Assembly: GCF_900167335.1 (NCBI RefSeq)
Contig: NZ_FUXI01000004.1
Span: forward strand, 1 to 64,000
From: Pilibacter termitis
GTDB taxonomy: Bacteria > Bacillota > Bacilli > Lactobacillales > Streptococcaceae
Reading direction: 5' to 3'
Length of the DNA: 64,000 nt
This document shows, one piece after another, positions 10,860 to 62,416 of the stretch. The position numbers and the translations under genes were made by a program. Under the pieces are notes generated by a model. That model searched no databases. It had not been told where the DNA came from and worked only from the letters and a program-made list of their open reading frames with translations. The stretch's first letter is position 1. Each line of letters begins with the position of its first letter.

Positions 10860-11231
10860 AAGGTTGAAATGTGCGTTTAGAAGTTTGATACAATGAGGTA
10901 TGGCATTTATTTACTCGAAACGAAGTTTCGAGTGCCGTACCTCATAGTATCCAAACTTCTGCACATTGAAACTAGATTGGCTAAAAAGCGTAGAATTGCG
11001 TAAGGATTTTGATACAGTGAGCCGTGGCATTTATATACTTGAAACGAAGTTTCGAGTGCTGTACCTCATAGTATCCAAACTTCTGCACATTGAAACTAGA
11101 TTGGATAAAAAGCGTAGAATTGCGTAAGGATTTTGATACAGTGAGCCGTGGCATTTATATACTTGAAACGAAGTTTCAAGTGCCACTGCGAACAGTATCC
11201 AAAATCCTGCAATTCGTAACTAGACTGGCTA
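10860..11231 (+). repeat. Three tandem hairpin elements (array A)
   Basis: Three units of about 120-124 bp (about 10860-10983, 10984-11107, 11108-11231) each form a long imperfect hairpin capped by a GAAAC-GAA-GTTTC stem-loop. Units end in the ACTAGA(C/T)TGG(C/A)T block equivalent to CTAGACAAAG in other copies. The middle unit has the left arm of unit 3 and the right arm of unit 1, so its arms do not match. This is what a 124-bp tandem duplication between two hairpin loops would leave. Confidence 0.9.
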
Positions 11232-11350
11232 AAAAGCGTAGCTTTTCAGCGTAGCGAATACTTTTGCGTAGGAGGAGTTCAAGTCTACGAAGTAGACCGA
11301 GACGAAGTCTCGCTTTGAGCCATGCTCAAAGTGAACCCCGAGAAGCACTT
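11232..11350 (+). repeat. Truncated fourth unit and three small hairpins
   Basis: AAAAGCGTAGC begins a fourth unit that breaks off. Then come three short perfect hairpins in a row: GTCTACGAAGTAGAC, GAGACGAAGTCTC and CTTTGAGCCATGCTCAAAG. The first two share a CGAAG-like loop core. No coding potential is seen. The rest of the gap to about 11460 is AT-rich and featureless. Confidence 0.6.
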
Positions 11351-14890: not shown

Positions 14891-15012
14891 AGCTAGACAA
14901 AGAAAAGCTACGAGGGGCGTTTTGAAGTCTGCAACAGTGAGCCACAGCATTTACCTGCTGGAAACGAAAGTTTCCAGTGCTGTTGCGAACAGTTGCCCCT
15001 CGTAGTTAGACA
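14891..15012 (+). repeat. Hairpin element B with relic of a second unit
   Basis: AGCTAGACAAAG at 14891-14902 is the 3' end of a lost unit. A unit then runs from 14903 to about 15012, with apical stem CTGGAAACGAAAGTTTCCAG. Its right outer arm is shortened. The element ends about 7 nt before the SD (AAAGGGG) of the ABC permease gene, in the same orientation. Confidence 0.85.
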
Positions 15013-15029: not shown

Positions 15030-16181
15030 ATGAATTTATTAAAATTGGAATGGAAAACGCTTGTACGGTCGAAGTTTATTTTCATTGTGCCGAGCTTTTT
15101 TCTTATTATGTTTGGCTTACTGTTTCTTTTGAATATTCAAGACAATCATGAAGAAATCTGGCGAATGAAGAATGAGTTGAATCAATTGAACGCACAAGGT
15201 GAGATGGGCATTTCATTGAATGCCACGGAGGATATACGAAAAGACTTTGAGGAGAAAGCGAAAAAAAGGGAAGAGGCGTATCGTGATGTTGTGATTTCTG
15301 GTTTTCGCAAAGATAAGACGACTTATGTGAAAGATTACATCAAAGTGCTAGATTATTGGTTGGATATGATCCCAGATAGCGAAGCGGGAACAGAATTTAA
15401 AAAGGAAAAATTACTTTATGAGCAAATTGTAAAAAATAAAAACACTTTGATTTTTGAAAGTGCCAATTCAAACGATGATGAAAAACAAAAACCAACGTTA
15501 AATGCACTAAAACAAGGATTTTTCACCTTGTTGCCAACGCATTATATCATGCTTTTTCTTTCACTATTGATTGGTTTTCTCTTTTACCAAGCGGAAAAGA
15601 GTAAAAGTAAGGAACTCGTTGCGATGTTGCCTGTCGCAAATTGGAAGAAAAGTGTGCATAGACTTGTCTTTTTCTACGGTTATCTTTGTATTCCGTTTTT
15701 GATAATGTTAGGGTTGTTTTTCATTGTAAATAGTGCGTTTTATGGTATCGGTGAATGGAATTATCCAGTTGTAGTTTTGCAATCAAAAAAAGTGCCAATT
15801 TTGATGACACAAGCCGATTTTTTCAAGCAATTTCTAGTGCTGATACTGTTATTTTTCCTTTTCATCGTCTTGTTCAATTATATAATTGCCAGATGGACGA
15901 AACATATTGTGCCAATTTTCATTGGGAATATTTTGATATTCTTGTCGGAAAATGCTCCTTTTTTCCAAACGGAGCAAATGTTAGAAATTAGAAAATGGTT
16001 TGTCGGTTCATACGCCAACATTGCCAGAATTATTTTGCGACCAGAGGAGCGAGGAATGGTTGAGCTATCAATGAACGGCTTTTATCCAACGTTTTTACAG
16101 TCAATTGTTGTAATATGTCTAGCTATTTTTATCTGCCTAGCATTAATCGTTGTCACAGAATTTAGGAGGGTACGAGTATGA
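15030..16181 (+). CDS. ABC-2 type transporter permease
   Basis: The 383-residue membrane protein has one N-terminal membrane segment (about residues 15-32). A charged region of roughly 130 residues follows, then about five hydrophobic segments from residue 170 to the C-terminus. This is the plan of ABC-2 permeases with a large loop after the first helix. Its 3' end overlaps the ATPase gene by 4 nt (ATGA), so the two form one exporter. The substrate is unknown; bacteriocin/lantibiotic immunity or a lipid-type cargo are common for such pairs. Confidence 0.85.
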   Translation: MNLLKLEWKTLVRSKFIFIVPSFFLIMFGLLFLLNIQDNHEEIWRMKNELNQLNAQGEMGISLNATEDIRKDFEEKAKKREEAYRDVVISGFRKDKTTYVKDYIKVLDYWLDMIPDSEAGTEFKKEKLLYEQIVKNKNTLIFESANSNDDEKQKPTLNALKQGFFTLLPTHYIMLFLSLLIGFLFYQAEKSKSKELVAMLPVANWKKSVHRLVFFYGYLCIPFLIMLGLFFIVNSAFYGIGEWNYPVVVLQSKKVPILMTQADFFKQFLVLILLFFLFIVLFNYIIARWTKHIVPIFIGNILIFLSENAPFFQTEQMLEIRKWFVGSYANIARIILRPEERGMVELSMNGFYPTFLQSIVVICLAIFICLALIVVTEFRRVRV

Positions 16182-29358: not shown

Positions 29359-29376
29359 CAATCGTTGCATAAAAAG

Positions 29377-29745
29377 AAAAGCGAAGAGGAGCGTTCTGAA
29401 GTCTGCAACAGTGAACACTGTCGTTTATTTACTTGAAACGAAGTTTCAAGCGACATTGTGAACAGTTGCCAGACTTCAGCTCCTCGTAGCTAGACAAAGA
29501 AAAGCGAGCGGAGCGTTCTGAAGTATGTGGTAGTGAGCCGTGTCATTTACTTGCTCGAAACGTAAGTTTCGAGCGACACAGCGAACAGCCACCAGACTTC
29601 AGCCCCTCATAGCTAGACAAAGAAAAGCGGAGAGGCGCGTTCTGAAGTCTGTGGTAGTGAGCTTTGTCGTTTACTTGCTCGAAACGTAAGTTTCGAGCGA
29701 CACAGCGAACAGCCACCAGACTTCAGCCCCTCGCAGCTAGACAAA
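29377..29745 (+). repeat. Three tandem hairpin elements (array C)
   Basis: Three 123-bp units (29377-29499, 29500-29622, 29623-29745) start AAAAGCG and end CTAGACAAAG. Apical stems are CTTGAAACGAAGTTTCAAG in unit 1 and CTCGAAACGTAAGTTTCGAG in units 2 and 3. They fill the leader between the ptsG-like promoter and gene, in the same orientation. Confidence 0.92.
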
Positions 29746-32893: not shown

Positions 32894-33002
32894 TGAGAAA
32901 TTCTAAAAACTTGAGTATTTTAGTTTCTTTTAAGTTTCGTTTTTTATAATCGTTTTATCAAATCATTTAGAGAACCTTTAATGCTGATTTTTAGAAAGTA
33001 GG

Positions 33003-33371
33003 AAAAGCGAAGCGGGGCGTTCAGGAGTTTGTCGTAGTGAGCCACAGCATTTATTTACTGGAAACGAAGTTTCCAGTGCTGTTGCGAACATCGACCCAAC
33101 TCCTGCCCCTCGCAGCTAGACAAAGAAAAGCGAGCGGGGCGTTTAGGGGATTGTCGCAGTGAGCAATGCCATTTACTTGCCTGAAGCAGAGCTTCAGGTG
33201 GTATTGCGAACAGCGACCAAGCCCCTGCCCCTCGCAGCTAGACAAAGAAAAGCGAAGAAGTGCGTTAAGGAGTTTGCAACAGTGAGCCGTGTCGTTTATT
33301 TACTCGAAACGCAAGTTTCGAGCGACACTGCGAACAGTTGCCAAACTCCTGCACTTCGTAGCTAGACAAAG
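33003..33371 (+). repeat. Three tandem hairpin elements (array D)
   Basis: Units 33003-33125, 33126-33247 and 33248-33371 start AAAAGCG and end CTAGACAAAG. Their apical stems are CTGGAAACGAAGTTTCCAG, CCTGAAGCAGAGCTTCAGG and CTCGAAACGCAAGTTTCGAG. All three differ in sequence yet pair. The last unit ends inside the SD of the VTC gene: its terminal AAAG is part of AAAGGAG. Confidence 0.93.
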
Positions 33372-33380
33372 GAGAATAAA

Positions 33381-34178
33381 ATGGCAAAAAAAGTACGAGT
33401 AAAAGAAGGACAGATTTTTGAACGGAAAGAGAAAAAATATGTTTTGACAAAGGAACAATTTGAGCAACTTGTAGCACATTTAACGCAGTATATGAGTTTT
33501 GACGATTATGGTGAGCATACTATTCATACGGTGTATTATGACACGACAGATTATGATGTGATACGTCATAGCGTTTCAAAACCTAGATTTAAAGAAAAGT
33601 TGAGATTGCGAAGTTATGGCAAAGCGACTTATGACGGCGAAGTATTTTTGGAATTAAAGAAAAAAGTTGCAGGTGTGACGTATAAAAGACGTGAGAAAAT
33701 GCCTTATTGCGAGGCGATCGAGTTTTTAAGCAAGCAAGGAAGTGAAAGAAAAACGCAAATTTTAAATGAAATTGGCTATCATCAACGACAATTTTCAGTA
33801 AAACCAGTTGTGTTGATTAGTTATGACCGTTTGGCGATGTATCACAAAAAGGATAGCGATTTTCGGATAACGTTTGACAAAAATATCCGATATAGTTTGA
33901 GCGAGTTTGATTTGACGAGGGCAGATGACATTGATCAAACAGCTTTGACGGATAGCGACACTGTTTTAATGGAAATTAAGATTTCTGATTCTTTTCCGTT
34001 AGAAATTTCACGGATACTGTCACTCCTTGACATTTATCAAGGGAAATTTACAAAATACGGCAATATTTATAAAAGTGCGATTGCACCAAATTATTATGAA
34101 GGGAAGTTAAAACAGATGAATACAAAGGAAATGACTAGACATACTAAAGAAAATGAGGTGATGAATTATGCTTTCTAG
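33381..34178 (+). CDS. VTC-domain protein
   Basis: The 265-residue protein has the tunnel-forming VTC/CYTH-type fold: FERKEKKYVL near the N-terminus, then basic and acidic strands RFKEKLRLRSYG and VFLELKKKVAGVTYKRRE, and DTVLMEIKI near the end. In yeast Vtc4 this domain polymerises polyphosphate from ATP. Bacterial members next to DUF4956 genes have no settled function. The SD is AAAGGAG at 33368-33374, formed partly by the hairpin element. The gene overlaps the next by 11 nt. Confidence 0.87.
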   Translation: MAKKVRVKEGQIFERKEKKYVLTKEQFEQLVAHLTQYMSFDDYGEHTIHTVYYDTTDYDVIRHSVSKPRFKEKLRLRSYGKATYDGEVFLELKKKVAGVTYKRREKMPYCEAIEFLSKQGSERKTQILNEIGYHQRQFSVKPVVLISYDRLAMYHKKDSDFRITFDKNIRYSLSEFDLTRADDIDQTALTDSDTVLMEIKISDSFPLEISRILSLLDIYQGKFTKYGNIYKSAIAPNYYEGKLKQMNTKEMTRHTKENEVMNYAF

Positions 34179-34848
34179 TATTTTGACAAGTACAACCAAT
34201 AATCTAACAATAAGTATCCCAACTCTTTTAATGACGATATTTTCTAGTTTAATAGCAGGCCTTATTATTGCAAGGGTGCATATGTACCGAAATGTTTACA
34301 GCAAGCATTTAATTTTCACCGTGGCACTTTTGCCTGTTTTGGTATCGGCGATTATCATGGTGGTAAATGGAAATCTTGGTGCAGGAATTACGGTTGCTGG
34401 TGCGTTTAGTCTTGTTCGTTTTCGTTCGGCTCCCGGAAATGCTCGAGAAATCACAACGGTGTTTTTCTCTATGGCAACAGGGCTTGCGATTGGAATGGGG
34501 TATATTGCGTATGCGTTTATTTTCCTTATTTGCGTGAGTTTGGCGATGATTGTTTACAGCAGAATCAATTTTGGCGAGGCGACAAGTCATGAAAAACAAG
34601 TGAAAATTACTTTGCCAGAATATACCGATTATAATTCTGAATTTGAACCAGTCATGAAAGAATTTACAAGCAGATACAAATTAGAAACCGTCAAAACAAC
34701 GAACTTAGGCTCATTGCTTGAGGCAACATTTATGGTAATCGAAAAAGAGCCATTACAACAAAAAGACTTTTTAGACAAACTAAGAGAAATCAACGGAAAC
34801 CTACCAATTGTTATTCAAAGTAGCAAGCATGGTATGAATGATTTATAA
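34168..34848 (+). CDS. DUF4956-family membrane protein
   Basis: The 226-residue protein has about four hydrophobic segments in the first 130 residues. Then comes a conserved basic loop GAFSLVRFRSAPGNAREITTVFFSMATGLAIGMG, and a soluble C-terminal domain. These features match DUF4956. It overlaps the VTC gene by 11 nt, so the two products probably form one membrane complex. The hairpin element E starts two bases after its stop codon. Confidence 0.85.
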   Translation: MLSSILTSTTNNLTISIPTLLMTIFSSLIAGLIIARVHMYRNVYSKHLIFTVALLPVLVSAIIMVVNGNLGAGITVAGAFSLVRFRSAPGNAREITTVFFSMATGLAIGMGYIAYAFIFLICVSLAMIVYSRINFGEATSHEKQVKITLPEYTDYNSEFEPVMKEFTSRYKLETVKTTNLGSLLEATFMVIEKEPLQQKDFLDKLREINGNLPIVIQSSKHGMNDL

Positions 34849-34849
34849 G

Positions 34850-34970
34850 AAAAGCGAGCGGGGCGTTTTGAAGTTTGCAATAGTGAGCCGTGCCGTTTAC
34901 TTGCTCGAAACGAGTTTCGAGCGGCACTGCGAACAGTTGCCAAACTCCTGCACTTCGTAGCTAGACAAAG
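34850..34970 (+). repeat. Hairpin element E
   Basis: A single 121-bp unit, starting AAAAGCG and ending CTAGACAAAG, with apical stem CTCGAAACGAGTTTCGAG. It fills the gap between the DUF4956 and beta-helix genes and stops 4 nt before the GGAG of the latter. Confidence 0.92.
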
Positions 34971-34985
34971 AAAAGGAGAATTTTC

Positions 34986-36281
34986 ATGAAGAACAAACAA
35001 ATAATTTTAATTTCTGTCATCGGTATTTTTGTTATAGGAATATTTGCAGGTACCTTTTTTCTGAAAAAAGAAAAAGAGAACACAGCGACAAATACCACAA
35101 GTTCTACAACACAATCACAGGAAACGAAACAAGAGGAGAGTGTCGCAAAAATTGAAACTACTGCACTTGAAAATGCAACAAACGTAGATTTATCGAAAAA
35201 CGCTACACTTTCGATTACACAGGCGGGAGTGTATAACATCACAGGAAAAACGAGTGAGGGGCAAATTACAGTCAACCTTGCCAATGATACAGACGAGGTG
35301 ACACTTGTACTAAACAATGCAGAAATTGCCAATTCTACAACGTCTCCTATTTCGATTTTAAATGGGAAAAACGTCACAATAGAAACAAAGACTGGCACAA
35401 CAAACACGATTACAGGTACAGGAAGTGATACGGAAAACACAGCTACAATTTACTCTAAAGATGATTTGGATTTTTCAGGAGACGGAGAGCTTGTTGTGAC
35501 TTCTGCAAACAATAATGCCATTCAATCAAAGAATGATTTAACATTCACAAGCGGAACGTATCAATTGACTGCAAAAAATGAGGCAATCAAAGGAAAAGAT
35601 AGCGTTACGTTTGACGGCGGTGTATTCAATTTGACCTCTGAAAGTCATGGTGTAAAAACGACCAATACTGAAGAGGCAAATAAAGGAGTGATTACAGTCA
35701 ATGGCGGAGAATTGAACATCAAAGCAAGCGAGGACGGACTTCACGCAACAACAAATGTCGTGATAAATAAAGGTGTAGTCACACTTGACGTGGAAGACGA
35801 CGGGATTCATGCTGACGGTGAATTAATTGTAAATAACGGTACGATTAATGTTAAAAACAGCTATGAGGGACTTGAGGCGAGCAATGTGCAAATTAAAGGC
35901 GGTGAAATTGAAGTCAACGCTCAAGATGACGGTATCAACGGTGCAGGTGGCAACGATACAGCGACAACGCAAGATCATTTTAGCAATAGCACAGGTGAAA
36001 TTACGATTTCAGGTGGAAAAATAGTGATAAAAGCAGGTCTTTCTGGAAGTGGCGACGGTGTAGATTCCAATGGCGATTTGACGATTTCAGCAGGAGAGGT
36101 AAAAGTTTACGATCCAGAAAATGCACGTGACTGGTCAGCGATTGATTTTGACGGAAATTATACGCAAAACGAGTCTGCAAGTGTAACGGAAATTTCATCA
36201 AGTGGCACAGAAACCGCAATTACCGAAGCAACTGCCGGACAAGGCGGAAAAGGAATGGGAGGAGGCATGGGAAGAAGGTAA
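34986..36281 (+). CDS. Cthe_2159-type carbohydrate-binding beta-helix protein
   Basis: The 431-residue exported protein has an N-terminal hydrophobic segment (about residues 5-25) without a lipobox cysteine, so it is probably membrane-anchored by its signal. A Thr/Ser/Gln linker follows. The rest is repeated short strands (LVVTSANNNAIQSKNDLTF, VTFDGGVFNLTSESHGVKT, VTLDVEDDGIHADGEL) of a right-handed beta-helix, ending in a Gly/Met tail. Relatives of Cthe_2159 bind acidic polysaccharide. With the VTC and DUF4956 genes it forms a recurring three-gene neighbourhood. Confidence 0.8.
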   Translation: MKNKQIILISVIGIFVIGIFAGTFFLKKEKENTATNTTSSTTQSQETKQEESVAKIETTALENATNVDLSKNATLSITQAGVYNITGKTSEGQITVNLANDTDEVTLVLNNAEIANSTTSPISILNGKNVTIETKTGTTNTITGTGSDTENTATIYSKDDLDFSGDGELVVTSANNNAIQSKNDLTFTSGTYQLTAKNEAIKGKDSVTFDGGVFNLTSESHGVKTTNTEEANKGVITVNGGELNIKASEDGLHATTNVVINKGVVTLDVEDDGIHADGELIVNNGTINVKNSYEGLEASNVQIKGGEIEVNAQDDGINGAGGNDTATTQDHFSNSTGEITISGGKIVIKAGLSGSGDGVDSNGDLTISAGEVKVYDPENARDWSAIDFDGNYTQNESASVTEISSSGTETAITEATAGQGGKGMGGGMGRR

Positions 36282-43372: not shown

Positions 43373-43894
43373 ATGTTCGGGCAATGTTTAAGGGCACCTC
43401 TAAAAACTCACACTTATCCTAAATTGCTAGTTTTCCGATTTTCTTTGTCAATCTCCTCAACCTATGAACCACATAGCTTTCGTCGATTTCCTCGAAAATC
43501 GAAAAACTAGCTAATTTAGTCTTAAGCGGAGTTTTTAGAGGTGCCCTTATGTGAAAAAGTTACTGTTGAAATTTTTGAAGAAAAAACGGAAGTATCTGTT
43601 TGTCATTGTTCAAGGTGTCGAAAATGGACGGCGGGACCGTTTTTCTCTATTTTTATTGGAAAGAAAGAGAATTTCAAACTTGTTGGAGAACAATTTTTGA
43701 AAACTTATCATTTTTCTTCAGAAAGCGAGCGTGCTTTTTGTAAAGAATGTGGTTCAGTCATTTATTGGAAAAATGAACAAGACGCTCAGTATTCATTTAA
43801 TGCAGAATTATTCCCAACACTTGTGAACGGCTATGAAATAAAGAAAGAATACTATTTAGAAAATAAACCTAACTACTATAACTTATCAAAATAA
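43373..43894 (+). pseudogene. GFA-family (CENP-V/GFA) gene interrupted by a MITE
   Basis: ATG 43373, after GAGGAG, opens MFGQCL. The 157-bp MITE at 43391-43547 then intervenes, and the frame resumes as CEKVTVEIF. Joining across one TA copy restores MFGQCLCEKVTVEIF, with the CxC zinc pair of the GFA family. Further on the gene has CHCSRCRKW and FCKECGSVIYW. A GTG at 43541, inside the MITE end, can start a 117-residue product that replaces the first cysteine by proline. That product would lack one zinc ligand and has no evident SD. The original enzyme type (glutathione-dependent formaldehyde-activating-like) is named by fold; the substrate is unknown. Confidence 0.88.
43391..43547. mobile_element. 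157-bp MITE, intact copy, TA target duplication
   Basis: The ends AGGGCACCTCTAAAAACTC and GAGTTTTTAGAGGTGCCCT are perfect 19-bp inverted repeats. TA lies at both flanks (43389-43390 and 43548-43549). No coding capacity. TA duplication and short size resemble elements moved in trans by IS630/Tc1-mariner transposases, such as the pneumococcal RUP. It is inserted in the GFA-family gene. Confidence 0.9.
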
Positions 43895-45427: not shown

Positions 45428-45538
45428 TCCTTTGTCTAGCTGTGAGGGGCTGGAGTTGGGCAACTGTTCACAACAGTTAAGCAAGTAAATACTGTCACTC
45501 GCTGTTGCAAACTCCAAAACGCCCCTCTTCGCTTTTCT
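45428..45538 (-). repeat. Hairpin element F (minus orientation)
   Basis: Read on the minus strand it starts AAAAGCGAAGAGGGGCG and ends AGCTAGACAAAG, leading directly into the GGAG of the flavodoxin SD. The apical GAAAC hairpin is largely lost, but the outer arms (GGAGTTTGCAAC with its partner) still pair. Orientation follows the minus-strand gene. Confidence 0.9.
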
Positions 45539-52480: not shown

Positions 52481-52599
52481 AAACAGAACATTCCACAAAA
52501 AACAGTGTGCAAATTTTGGCAGACTGTTTTCTATTCTACCATTTTTGAGTTATAATATATGACGAACAAGCAAGTACTTGCTACTGATTCATTGACTTA

Positions 52600-52880
52600 A
52601 GGGCACCTCTAAAAACTCGCACTTATCCTAAATTGCTAGTTTTCCGATTTTCTTTGTCAATCTCCTCAACGACTGTCTAGCTACGAGGAGCTGAAGTCTG
52701 GCAACTGCTCACAATGTCGCTAGAAACTTACGTTTCTAGCAAATGAACGACAGTGTTCGCTGTTGCAGACTTCAAAACACTCCTCTTCGCTTTTCTATGA
52801 ACCACATAGCTTTCGTCGATTTCCTCGATAATCGAAAAACTAGCTAATTTAGTCTTAAGCGGAGTTTTTAGAGGTACCCT
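52600..52880. mobile_element. 157-bp MITE, second copy, split by a hairpin element
   Basis: Ends AGGGCACCTCTAAAAACTC (52600 onward) and GAGTTTTTAGAGGTACCCT (to 52880) are flanked by TA at 52598-52599 and 52881-52882. The 281-bp element equals the 157-bp copy at 43391 plus a 124-bp insertion at 52671-52794. Outside the insertion the two copies are nearly identical. It lies just upstream of the pdxK-like gene. Confidence 0.92.
52671..52794 (-). repeat. Hairpin element H, inserted in the MITE
   Basis: A complete unit in reverse orientation: on the minus strand it starts AAAAGCGAAGAGGAGTG and ends CTAGACAGTC. The apical stem is CTAGAAACGTAAGTTTCTAG. The MITE resumes exactly after it (CTCCTCAAC before, CTATGAACC after), with no base missing and no obvious target duplication. 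Confidence 0.93.
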
Positions 52881-52914
52881 TAACATTGAATTTACGAAAT
52901 GGAGGAAAGGGAAG

Positions 52915-57692: not shown

Positions 57693-58020
57693 CAAGTTTT
57701 TAGAGATGCCTATATATTTTTAAACATATGAAAATGAGTTATTTATTTGGAAAAATAGCAGGTAAAATAGGTGTTAATTTTAAGTTATCAAATTATTTTA
57801 TAATAAAACTAGATTTTTTGCATAAATACGTTTTCTTTTTTTGCAAAATAGTTTAATATAAATAATATTAAATCTACTATTTTTTGAAACAAGAGAATGA
57901 AATACTTTTTTGGGTGGGTGGTTTCATTTTTTCAGAAAACTTTGGGATTTAAAGTAGGTACCTCTAAAACTCGGATTAAGCCAAAACTAGCAATTTTGGG
58001 GAACGTGAGTTTTATGAGGG
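57693..58020. repeat. Degraded MITE ends upstream of the surface-protein gene
   Basis: GTTTTTAGAGATGCCTA (57693 region) resembles a MITE right end. Further on, GGTACCTCTAAAACTCGGATTAAG followed by AAAACTAGCAATTTT resembles the opposite end read in reverse, down to a degraded partner GAGTTTTATGAGGG near 58017. The copies are too decayed to delimit. The AT-rich sequence between holds a candidate promoter. Confidence 0.45.
57841..57868 (+). promoter_or_regulatory. Candidate promoter of the surface-protein gene
   Basis: TTGCAA (57841-57846) and TAATAT (57863-57868) are 16 bp apart, giving a leader of about 255 nt with a complex hairpin. Confidence 0.45.
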
Positions 58021-58129: not shown

Positions 58130-61100
58130 ATGAAAACATTAAAAAAGGGTTTTGTTGAGCGGTTTGTGATTGTGTTACTTTTGCTATTTCCTTATTTTGC
58201 AACACTTGGCAATGTGGAAGTGGCTCAAGCGAGCGATTATGATGAGGCAACAATCAAAGGAACATTTGGAACGGCGGATTGGTATATTAAAAATGGCACG
58301 ACGGAACTTCATATTTTAGGTGGAGAATTTGGTGTAGCAGTAAATATCCAAAATGGTACAGGCAATACTCCAGATAGCCCTTGGTGGGAATGGGAAAGTG
58401 GAATTACCAAAATTATTTTTGATGAAAAAGTGATAGCGAACAAAAATTCTTCTTATTTGTTTAATGGATTGGCAACACTTACAAGTATCGAAGGGCTTGA
58501 TAAATTAGATACAAGCAAAGTTGAAGATATGAAAGGTATGTTTCGTGGGATTGCAGTAACCTCTTTAGATTTAAGCCAATTTGACACAAGAAATGTCAAA
58601 GAGATGACTGGTTTATTCAATTGGTGTAAGAACTTGAAAAATATAGATTTAAGCAGTTTTGACACCTCTAAAGTTACCAATATGGTTGGAATGTTTGCAG
58701 GTTGTAACAATTTAGAATCTATTACTTTCGGCGATCATTTTGATACGAGTAATGTAGTTGGTATGGTGAGTATGTTTCATGGATGTAATAGCCTAAAAAG
58801 TATTGACGTAAGCAAATTCGACACTTCTAACGTTATTGATATGGCAGTTATGTTTGCAGAGTGTAGTAGCTTGAAAAATCTCGACCTCACGAGTTTTGAT
58901 ACTTCAAACGTTGTTGATATGATGTCTATGTTTGCGGGTTGTTCAGTTTTGGAAACGTTAGATTTAAGTAGCTTTGATACAAGCAAAACTACGAACATGG
59001 CTTTTATGTTCCAACAAGATTTTGAGCTTACTTCTCTTAAACTTGGTAAAAATTTCAAAACAAATAACGTAACAAGAATGGAGTTGATGTTTGAGAAATG
59101 TAGAAAATTAGAAACGATAGACTTGAGCAGTTTTACTACTTCAAATGTAACGAATATGCAAGCAATGTTTAGTGGTTGTTGGCGTTTAAAAGAAATTGAT
59201 GTGAGTAATTTTAACACGTCAAATGTTCTTGATATGACGATGATGTTTTACGATTGTCAAAGTTTGGTAGATTTAGATGTTGCCAATTTCGATATTTCAA
59301 AGACGAATAATGTAAGAGCTATGTTTGAATCATGTAAAAACTTAAAATCTTTGAATATAAGTAATTTTGATGTGAGTCATACAGATTCTGGCAATATACT
59401 AAGCGGTTTACTTTCGCTAAGAAAACTCACGTTAGGAGCGAATGCCAGGCTAGTGGCGAACCAGTCAGGGTTGTTCGATATTTCTTTGCAAAATTATGGC
59501 GGTTATACTCCTGAAGCCTACACAGGCTCGTGGCAAAATATCGGCACAAGTACAGACGAAAACCGCCCAAATGGAAATTACGTTTTCACCTCTAATGAGC
59601 TAATGGCAAATTATAATGGAACTCAAGCAGGCACATATGTTTGGCAACCTAAGTATTACTCTGTTACTTGGAACGGAGTGCATGGAATATTCATTGGTGG
59701 AACAACGAGTGTTACGAATAATCAACTTCTCTATGGCGAAGCGACACCGACACCAGAGAATTTTACTCCGCCATTTAACTATGTATTTGACGGCTGGGAG
59801 CCAATGATAGAAAATACGGTCACAAAAGATATGGTTTATACAGCCAAATGGCAACATCGTATCAATGAGAGTGTGCAACCTTGGCAAGCGAAACGGATTA
59901 TTTCTTACCAATACGCTGACGGGACAAAAGCTGCTGAAACAGTCGAACAAACGCTCACTTTTACACGAAATTTGAAGAGTGATATGGTAGACGGAACGGT
60001 TTTAGAGGATTACTGGGACAAAGCAAGTGACAATTTTCCAGAAATCACAAGCCCAACGATTCCCAATTGGCAAGCGGATAAAGCAAAAGTACCAGCCAAG
60101 ACGATTACATGGCAAGAAGTTTTAGCCGTTCAAGATGCAATGTTTACAATAAAAGAAACGGTCATTTACGACCATGGCAAAAGTTCAGATGTTGATGAGA
60201 AAAATATCACAAGAACGATTCAATACAAGGACAAAGCCACAGGGAATACATTAGCACCTGACGAAGTACAAACTGTAACGTTCACAAGAGAGAAGACAAC
60301 AAATTTAGTGACAGGAGAGTTTCTTTATGGCTCGTGGAACGAGGTGACGCAAACTTTTTCTTCGAAAAATAGCCCGATTGTTGCAAATTACACAGCTGAA
60401 ACTCCGACAGTCGCTAGTCAAGTTGTAACACCAAATGATTTGGATACAACGGTGCAAGTCTACTACACCAAAAATGCAAACGTGACAGTAGATGAGGAAG
60501 TGAAAGAAATCACGAGAACAATTCAGTACAAGGATAAAGTGACGGGTGAAGAAAAAGCACCAGACGTACTGCAAAAAGTAAAATTCACACGGAATTGTAC
60601 AACAGATTTGAACACAGGAAACAAGACTTACGGAGCATGGAATGTTGCCGAACAAACATTTGCCACAGTGAAAAGTCCAGAAATAGCAGGCTGTACAGCG
60701 GACAAGTTAGTAGTGCCAAGCGAAACGGTGAAACCAGAGGATAAGGATATTCTTGTGACGGTAGAATATACACAAAACTCTAATGTCAAAATCGAAGAAG
60801 ATGTTAAGGAAATCACGAGAACGATTCAGTACAAGGACAAAGTGACAGGTGAAGAAAAAGCACCAGACGTACTGCAAAAAGTAAAATTCACACGAAATTG
60901 CACAACAGATTTGAACACAGGAAACAAGACTTACGGAGCATGGAATATTGCAGAACAAACATTTGCCACAGTGAAAAGTCCAGAAATAGTAGGTTATACA
61001 GCGGATAAGACAGTAGTGCCAAGCGAAACGGTGAAACCAGAAGATAAAGATATTCTTGTGACGGTAGAGTACACACAAAACCCTAACGTCAAAATCGAAG

Positions 61101-62416
61101 AAGATGTTAAAGAAATCACGAGAACGATTGAGTACAAGGATAAAGTGACAGGTGAAGAAAAAGCACCAGACGTACTGCAAAAAGTAAAATTCACACGAAA
61201 TTGCACAACAGATTTGAACACAGGAAACAAGATTTACGGAGCATGGAATATTGCAGAACAAACATTTGCCACAGTGAAAAGTCCAGAAATAGCAGGTTAT
61301 ACAGCGGACAAGTTAGATGTGCCAAGCGAAACGGTGAAACCAGAGGATAAGGATATTCTTGTGACGGTAGAATATACAAAAAACCCTAATGTCAAAATCG
61401 AAGAAGATGTTAAAGAAATCACGAGAACGATTGAGTACAAGGAAAAATCGACAGGCAAGCAATTAGCTGATAATAGCGTTCAAACGCTAAAATTCACAAG
61501 GGATAAAATAACCGATTTGGCAACGGAAGAGGTGAAGTTTGGAGCATGGAATGTTGCAGAACAAACATTTGCCACAGTGAAAAGTCCAGAAATAGCAGGT
61601 TATACAGCGGACAAGTTAGTTGTGCCAAGCGAAACGGTGAAACCAGAAGATAAGGATATTCTTGTGACGGTAGAATATACACAAAACCCGAATGTCAAAA
61701 TCGAAGAAGATATTAAGGAAATCACGAGAACAATTCAGTACAAGGACAAAGCGACAGGTAAGGAACTAGCAAATACAGTTGTTCAAACGCTAAAATTCAC
61801 AAGATATAAAATAACAGATTTGACAACAGGAGAGGTGAAATTTGGAGCATGGAATATTGCCGAACAAACATTTACCACAGTGAAAAGCCCAGAAATAGCA
61901 GGTTATACAGCGGATAAGACAGTAATACCAAGTGAAACGGTGAAACCAGAGGATAAGGATATTACTCTAACTGTTTACTACGTAAAAACTCCGTTAGTCG
62001 ATACGCAAATTCCTGCACCGGTAATTATTCGTTACGTCGATGAAACAGGGAAGTCATTGCTCAAAGACAAGGTAATTACAGGAAAATTGAACGAGAAATT
62101 TACCGAAAAAGCTCCGAGTATTTTAGGGTATAAGCTGAAAAGTAGTGAGAGTGCCGTTGAATTTACGATTACTACGAAGGAGCAGACGATTATCTTTGTG
62201 TATGAAAGTACAAACGCTCAATTGCCAACGACCTATGAGCCGACAACGAGTTCCACTACGACAACAAGTGTGAATAACAACACAACGACCTCCACCAGTA
62301 AAACATTGCCAAGCACCAATGAGGCAAAAGGAAATATTTGGAGTATGCTGGGTATGTGCATTATTTCTCTAGTTGTAGGGGTGTTTGTAAAACGTAAAAA
62401 AGCAAGAGTAATTTAA
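58130..62416 (+). CDS. Cell-wall-anchored surface protein with BspA-type LRRs, Mub and MucBP modules
   Basis: The 1428-residue protein has a signal peptide (to about residue 35). About ten BspA/DUF285-type repeats follow (about 110-430; FDTSNVxxMxxMFxxCxxL pattern), then an InlB B-repeat-like module (about 509-575, YSVTWNG to YTAKWQ). Seven Mub_B2-like modules of about 100 residues follow (about 585-1290), then a MucBP-type domain (about 1291-1365, VIIRYVDETGKSL), a Thr/Ser-rich stretch, the sortase signal LPSTN at 1393-1397, a hydrophobic helix and KRKK. The sorting motif ends in N instead of G. It is probably an adhesin for host glycoprotein or another surface. Modules R1-R3 contain cysteines, rare in such proteins. 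Confidence 0.93.
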   Translation: MKTLKKGFVERFVIVLLLLFPYFATLGNVEVAQASDYDEATIKGTFGTADWYIKNGTTELHILGGEFGVAVNIQNGTGNTPDSPWWEWESGITKIIFDEKVIANKNSSYLFNGLATLTSIEGLDKLDTSKVEDMKGMFRGIAVTSLDLSQFDTRNVKEMTGLFNWCKNLKNIDLSSFDTSKVTNMVGMFAGCNNLESITFGDHFDTSNVVGMVSMFHGCNSLKSIDVSKFDTSNVIDMAVMFAECSSLKNLDLTSFDTSNVVDMMSMFAGCSVLETLDLSSFDTSKTTNMAFMFQQDFELTSLKLGKNFKTNNVTRMELMFEKCRKLETIDLSSFTTSNVTNMQAMFSGCWRLKEIDVSNFNTSNVLDMTMMFYDCQSLVDLDVANFDISKTNNVRAMFESCKNLKSLNISNFDVSHTDSGNILSGLLSLRKLTLGANARLVANQSGLFDISLQNYGGYTPEAYTGSWQNIGTSTDENRPNGNYVFTSNELMANYNGTQAGTYVWQPKYYSVTWNGVHGIFIGGTTSVTNNQLLYGEATPTPENFTPPFNYVFDGWEPMIENTVTKDMVYTAKWQHRINESVQPWQAKRIISYQYADGTKAAETVEQTLTFTRNLKSDMVDGTVLEDYWDKASDNFPEITSPTIPNWQADKAKVPAKTITWQEVLAVQDAMFTIKETVIYDHGKSSDVDEKNITRTIQYKDKATGNTLAPDEVQTVTFTREKTTNLVTGEFLYGSWNEVTQTFSSKNSPIVANYTAETPTVASQVVTPNDLDTTVQVYYTKNANVTVDEEVKEITRTIQYKDKVTGEEKAPDVLQKVKFTRNCTTDLNTGNKTYGAWNVAEQTFATVKSPEIAGCTADKLVVPSETVKPEDKDILVTVEYTQNSNVKIEEDVKEITRTIQYKDKVTGEEKAPDVLQKVKFTRNCTTDLNTGNKTYGAWNIAEQTFATVKSPEIVGYTADKTVVPSETVKPEDKDILVTVEYTQNPNVKIEEDVKEITRTIEYKDKVTGEEKAPDVLQKVKFTRNCTTDLNTGNKIYGAWNIAEQTFATVKSPEIAGYTADKLDVPSETVKPEDKDILVTVEYTKNPNVKIEEDVKEITRTIEYKEKSTGKQLADNSVQTLKFTRDKITDLATEEVKFGAWNVAEQTFATVKSPEIAGYTADKLVVPSETVKPEDKDILVTVEYTQNPNVKIEEDIKEITRTIQYKDKATGKELANTVVQTLKFTRYKITDLTTGEVKFGAWNIAEQTFTTVKSPEIAGYTADKTVIPSETVKPEDKDITLTVYYVKTPLVDTQIPAPVIIRYVDETGKSLLKDKVITGKLNEKFTEKAPSILGYKLKSSESAVEFTITTKEQTIIFVYESTNAQLPTTYEPTTSSTTTTSVNNNTTTSTSKTLPSTNEAKGNIWSMLGMCIISLVVGVFVKRKKARVI
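60200..61998 (+). repeat. Tandem 303-bp repeats encoding Mub_B2-like modules
   Basis: Units start at 60200 (divergent, 300 bp), 60500, 60803, 61106, 61409 and 61712. The units at 60500-61711 are each exactly 303 bp. The first three of these are almost identical. The fourth has a 5' half like the fifth and a 3' half like the first three, a mosaic produced by recombination or gene conversion. Copy number may vary between strains. Confidence 0.93.

Follow-up and report, generated by a model that had tools for sequence, protein, structure and literature searches.

A probable two-layer, BOX-like modular repeat in Pilibacter termitis, with an IS5-type MITE outside and a hairpin module inside

We lean towards reading the repeat at 52600 as one copy of a BOX-like modular repeat with two layers, an IS5-type MITE outside and an exchangeable hairpin module inside. 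It lies in a 64,000 bp stretch of DNA (hereafter the window) from Pilibacter termitis, a member of the Streptococcaceae whose draft genome (G000) comprises 2.79 Mb in 59 contigs and is 98.7% complete. The outer and inner layers can be distinguished within this one genome and, because a single site is occupied differently in dozens of copies, it should be possible to measure how fast and how precisely modules are exchanged. The MITE features of the window are as follows.

43388..43550, minus strand: short MITE, hairpin site empty, 155 bp core at 43392-43546, flanks TTAA/TTAT
52597..52883, minus strand: composite (long) MITE with its TTAA/TTAA 4 bp duplication, core at 52601-52879
52601..52670, minus strand: ArmB, 70 bp, 99% identity to the ArmB reference
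52671..52794, minus strand: hairpin unit of type H3, 124 bp, with a non-standard GTC right junction at 52671-52673
52795..52879, minus strand: ArmA, 85 bp, outer end an IS5-like terminal repeat GGGTACCTCTAAAAACTC, 98% identity to the ArmA reference
57957..57997, plus strand: ArmA-like MITE end (fragment), 79% identity

When the 155 bp core at 43392-43546 is compared with the 279 bp core at 52601-52879, the arms match at 99% and 98% (three differences), and in the longer copy they are split by exactly 124 bp (52671-52794), between CTCCTCAAC and CTATGAACC. An earlier note on this DNA had given the two lengths as 157 and 281 bp; its arithmetic (281 = 157 + 124) holds, with one base added on each side of each core. 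It had also recognized the extra 124 bp as a hairpin unit in reverse orientation, and this was confirmed: the insert is 93% identical to 29375-29496 across the whole unit and has a predicted fold of -56.2 kcal/mol (z = -7.7, 0/200 shuffles). Its right junction reads GTC instead of AG, and no AG is visible there. The short MITE at 43388-43550 breaks the 5' end of a GFA-domain gene (PF04828), and reading across its 4 bp duplication brings an ATG in frame with the GFA domain. A locus in another Streptococcaceae MAG (L061), considered as an empty counterpart of the 52600 site, was rejected; its upstream neighbour differs and it therefore carries no empty-site information for 52600. Elsewhere in the window, 58130-62416 encodes a 1428 aa protein with at least six 303 nt repeats (60269-62083) and Muc_B2 and MucBP domains.

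The outer layer is an ordinary DDE-type element with IS5-family ends. Its arms are inverted repeats of each other, the 155 bp core matching itself at 71-76% over the whole element (fold z = -12.8), and it has the terminal inverted repeats, small size and short target-site duplication of a MITE of the IS5 family. Duplications of 4 bp flank 26/32 short copies (shuffled mean 7.7) and 26/29 long copies (shuffled mean 5.0), so that identical 4 bp flanks are found at 52 of the 61 copies overall (shuffled mean about 13 in all), most of them TTAA, ATAT, TAAA, ATAA or TTAT. The sole DDE_Tnp_1 gene found (L083) belongs to the IS5 family (NF033580, 142.5 bits against a cut-off of 110; PF13340 and PF01609). 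It is decayed, with a stop codon, and adjoins ends of the MITE's own family, which show 74% identity over ArmA 1-55 and no clear right end; an intact IS5 mobiliser was not found in the genome stretches searched. An IS5-family transposase would have moved the MITE in trans, leaving the 4 bp duplications, and the L083 transposase, or an intact copy since lost, may have been responsible. Comparison of the MITE and the hairpin with phage and plasmid collections gave no match. The earlier note had set the absence of a visible target duplication against ordinary DDE transposition. This contrast applies to the hairpin alone, because short and long MITEs alike carry 4 bp duplications.

MITE end sequences with three or fewer mismatches occur approximately 270 times in the genome (0 for a reversed control pattern), corresponding to approximately 136 elements if every end is paired, and there are more than 100 matches to the hairpin unit. 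A search with the central junction identified 48 places that read empty, 43 of them letter-perfect and without remnant, while a search with the filled junction identified 29 places, approximately 25 of which are genuine by context. The 59 sampled copies with both arms divide into 30 empty and 29 filled with 1, 2, 3, 4 or 7 units; these counts rest on sampled stretches, and the short copies are biased in being the best BLAST hits to one copy. In all 29 filled copies, ArmA, unit(s) and ArmB follow in that order on one strand, with a single hairpin position, identical to the base, and a single orientation. Filled junctions usually read CATAG/AAAAGCG...CTAGACA/AG/GTTGAGG and empty ones CATAG/GTTGAGG, so a 2 bp AG repeat is indistinguishable from an element end.

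Several variant forms were also observed. One copy (L098) is a partial internal deletion. Mini forms of approximately 70 bp consist of the two MITE ends only (L034 681-750, L078 173-243 and L083 1993-2064). At L071 204-542 and L084 225-563, the apical part of a hairpin unit is split by an inverted-repeat insert of a different kind and of approximately 60 bp. The composite MITE at L093 226-787 has three unit matches, two of which are halves of one interrupted unit, and is located immediately 5' of a TPP riboswitch (RF00059, 62 bits).

Hairpins and arms have decoupled histories. Among 20 single-hairpin MITEs, distances in ArmA follow those in ArmB (Mantel r = 0.64, p = 5e-5); for arms against hairpin the value is -0.13 (p = 0.88). 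L064 and L085 have identical arms and hairpins that differ at 21/122 positions, while L095 and L099 have identical hairpins and arms that differ at 17/149. Four copies with identical arms carry no unit (L005), one unit each of two different types (L064 and L085) and two units (L038). Short and long forms are both present in several arm subfamilies, and short/long status is scattered on the arm tree, slightly less than at random (at least 15 changes; shuffled mean 19.6, with 5/300 shuffles as low). Hairpins have therefore passed from one MITE background to another a whole module at a time. Arm columns that track hairpin type were not found, even 10-16 bp from the hairpin, in a weak test with 18 copies. 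As judged from these sequences, the hairpins did move relative to the MITEs, either by homologous recombination among copies or by repeated insertion of the module.

The 52600 copy had been taken as proof that the hairpin moved after the MITE had inserted. One copy cannot prove a local nested insertion, because at least 29 sampled MITEs hold hairpins at exactly this site and in this orientation, and recombination among copies can supply one with no fresh insertion; what survives of the claim is a separate history and a probable late gain. On the arm tree, this copy clusters with seven copies (SH-aLRT 84), none of which is filled in the sample; by arm sequence its nearest relative, one difference away, is empty. 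As its closest arm relatives are mostly empty, gain here is likelier than loss elsewhere, and the hairpin of the 52600 copy was probably acquired once the MITE lineage had already diversified. This clade, which is weakly supported and whose empty copies were picked by similarity to the 43388 copy, is all that polarises gain against loss, and it does so weakly. L040 also has the GTC junction, although its ArmB and the ArmB of the 52600 copy already differ no more than 11 bp from it.

Outside MITEs, the hairpin was sampled at 34 stand-alone sites with 1 to 9 units each and unrelated flanks. Those in the window are as follows.

10867..11250, plus strand: stand-alone array of three hairpin units, divergent subtype
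14901..14997, plus strand: stand-alone hairpin unit, 5' of the start codon at 15030
29375..29744, plus strand: stand-alone array of three hairpin units
33001..33369, plus strand: stand-alone array of three hairpin units, the last running into the Shine-Dalgarno of the gene at 33381
34848..34968, plus strand: stand-alone hairpin unit, flanked by the stop at 34848 and the gene at 34986
45432..45536, minus strand: stand-alone hairpin unit, leader of a reverse-strand gene

At 12 of the 23 stand-alone sites with clean flanks, a start codon with a Shine-Dalgarno-like sequence lies within 60 nt of the right end; the same test on the other side gave 0/23. The left boundary is AG at most stand-alone sites, as it is at the MITE junction, and no shared insertion target longer than AG/AGG was found across hairpin sites. 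Unit subtypes alternate in some stand-alone arrays (L043 2438-3118, L050 883-1619 and L056 1251-1748), and orders such as H3-H2-H3-H2 and H2-H1-H2-H1 look like duplication in pairs.

An alignment of 50 units supports a 40-pair stem in which 96.6% of cells are paired. Thirty of the 40 pairs have changed on both sides (331 such cells versus 98 in shuffles, 0/500), and slid controls of the alignment collapse. On the hairpin strand, G-U pairs outnumber A-C mismatches 49 to 22. This asymmetry (14 to 3 by locus, p = 0.013; 16 to 6 by pair column, p = 0.052) hints that the hairpin strand may function as RNA or single-stranded DNA, and it is only a hint because related units count repeatedly in such tests. 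Rfam 15 gave no gathering-score match to the repeat in the window, and in five composite-MITE loci the repeat was unmatched to an E-value of 1. The hairpin looks like an undescribed family of structured repeats that crosses genera and lies in gene leaders, with a possible effect on expression there.

Two covariance models (R1 and R2) detected the hairpin in 11/335 Streptococcaceae genomes from six genus groups; because some R1 hits went into the building of R2, a match of R2 to the genomes concerned is expected by construction, and the genomes that gave no hit at 1e-6, 324 in number, serve as the control. The homologues have the common core GTTTATT(T/A)ACTT...GAAGTT. Two sister species (G019 and G026) have the hairpin in tandem arrays, and their orthologous loci differ in the number of units (3 versus 2 at one, and 2 versus 0 full units at two sites). 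The "empty" sites of G026 were considered as a pre-insertion state and rejected: they are array contractions in which a partial unit of approximately 35 bp is left. Arrays of both species terminate in such a unit (L147 and L162; L149 and L172), and recombination can therefore remove every full unit while the partial copy stays. In a further genome (G031), homology between copies that are 89-97% identical is limited to 124-144 bp at unrelated sites, and six copies share a block of approximately 124-132 bp between unrelated flanks and carry a 13 bp terminal inverted repeat, TGTTTCATAACCC. These copies are the strongest indication that members of this hairpin family can disperse independently. 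Four of the six (L128, L133, L139, L144, L153 and L154) have TA on both sides, and at least two lie directly after a TATAAT-like box. No R1 or R2 match was found in G001, a 59% complete genome of the same genus as P. termitis with 72-78% DNA identity; its orthologue of the 45432..45536 leader has no hairpin, and it has diverged too far for a target duplication to be readable there.

In the two-layer explanation, the inner layer is a separate hairpin module of 122-124 bp at one fixed site, the apex of the folded MITE, where it is present in 0 to 7 head-to-tail copies and always in one orientation. The module would have first entered this site by insertion and would since have varied in number and type more rapidly than the arms, by exchange of whole modules between copies and by unequal recombination within arrays. 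The decoupled histories and the copy-number differences between sister species are observed; recombination is the agent that we propose for them. The 52600 copy would be one such long form, and its probable source is an empty copy belonging to the same arm lineage. Recombination among the hundred or so copies is preferred to repeated insertion because it accounts parsimoniously for the single site and orientation. The main point against it is that gene conversion should carry neighbouring arm alleles with it, and the 18-copy test, weak as it is, detected none. That absence of hitchhiking fits the proposal that the hairpin is itself an active mobile unit, repeatedly and precisely inserted at the MITE centre and in front of A/G-rich, Shine-Dalgarno-like sites by a mobiliser yet to be identified, with at most a 2 bp AG repeat as its trace. 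The unrelated flanks of the 34 stand-alone sites, the G031 copies (whose homology is limited to the block itself), the recurrent AG left boundary and the hairpin-free G001 leader agree with such activity. It would, however, require strong specificity for one base and one orientation where the shared target is only AG/AGG, the genome has no Y1 transposase (the family covered by the mobiliser search), and the two G026 sites proved to be contractions. We consider it unlikely, though a serious contender. Quite doubtful, in our estimate, is the broader claim that the hairpin represents a new Streptococcaceae family of gene-free mobile structured nucleic-acid module, acting at the RNA or single-strand level without a known hairpin transposase and entering the fixed apex of an unrelated MITE and Shine-Dalgarno-proximal sites with single-base precision.

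If instead the MITE arose with its hairpin, the short copies would be the products of many precise deletions, an origin that the earlier note had named as one that would refute its reading. The mixture of short and long forms in several arm subfamilies (15 changes on the arm tree), the partial internal deletion at L098 and the precise array contraction in G026 are compatible with this. Yet 43/48 empty junctions are perfect, whereas the deletions that were observed are either ragged or retain part of a unit; a precise deletion would have no direct repeat to use other than the 2 bp AG, and hairpin types that ignore arm types would go unexplained. An ancestral long form is thus improbable. The mechanism suggested in the earlier note, by which a RAYT or IS200/IS605 Y1 transposase moves a REP-like hairpin, draws on the resemblance of tandem arrays and units with asymmetric ends to REP/BIME and on the lack of a clear target duplication at 52600. 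A profile search for such a transposase (PF01797, Y1_Tnp) gave 0 matches in the 98.7% complete draft, in which one missed gene is possible, and was positive in 5/14 control genomes. The hairpin unit is also several times the length of a REP. We regard this mechanism as very improbable.

Known repeats share parts of this organization. REP/BIME sequences with RAYT are dispersed hairpins, sometimes in tandem, as here, but their units are short and they depend on a Y1 transposase, none of which was detected in this genome. RUP of S. pneumoniae is a simple 107 bp element with IS630-Spn1-like ends and without inner modules (PMC3049150); like the present MITE it is small and present in high copy number, and its ends resemble those of a resident IS, as those of the present MITE may, although of another IS family. 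BrickBuilt of Porphyromonas gingivalis is likewise a MITE holding a tandem array, placed between a "leader" and a "tail", with inverted-repeat ends and intergenic locations, but its unit is a 23 nt minisatellite and its host is unrelated; its abstract describes no free-standing array or module exchange, both of which are present here (PMC4596501). Beyond BrickBuilt and BOX, our literature search found nothing on the same repeat. BOX homology was suspected from a similar layout (a bulge and then an apical hairpin) and was not confirmed; the best overlap of R2 on a BOX-bearing contig was at chance level (E-value: 0.65, 22 nt). Membership in BOX is not claimed because a test for sequence homology of the hairpin was negative. 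BOX elements became known decades ago, and we know of no clear account of how their inner modules enter and change. Unlike BOX, in which boxB is approximately 45 bp, the repeat described here has an inner module of 122-124 bp with its own covarying stem, inner modules that are widespread as stand-alone arrays, and ends that appear to match an IS5-family element with 4 bp duplications. The BOX elements of S. pneumoniae and the BOX-type repeats of S. suis have an A-Bn-C layout, with approximately 125 copies per genome, a unit number that varies between relatives and a small number of lone modules, and in S. suis the same boxB modules are found between two different outer-module pairs (PMC3049150). 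The repeat of P. termitis similarly has inverted-repeat terminal modules around variable tandem inner modules (0, 1, 2, 3, 4 or 7), a folded inner module that hardly interacts with the outer ones, and a host in the Streptococcaceae. Pneumococcal BOX is the closest known architecture, and the element works in the manner of BOX.
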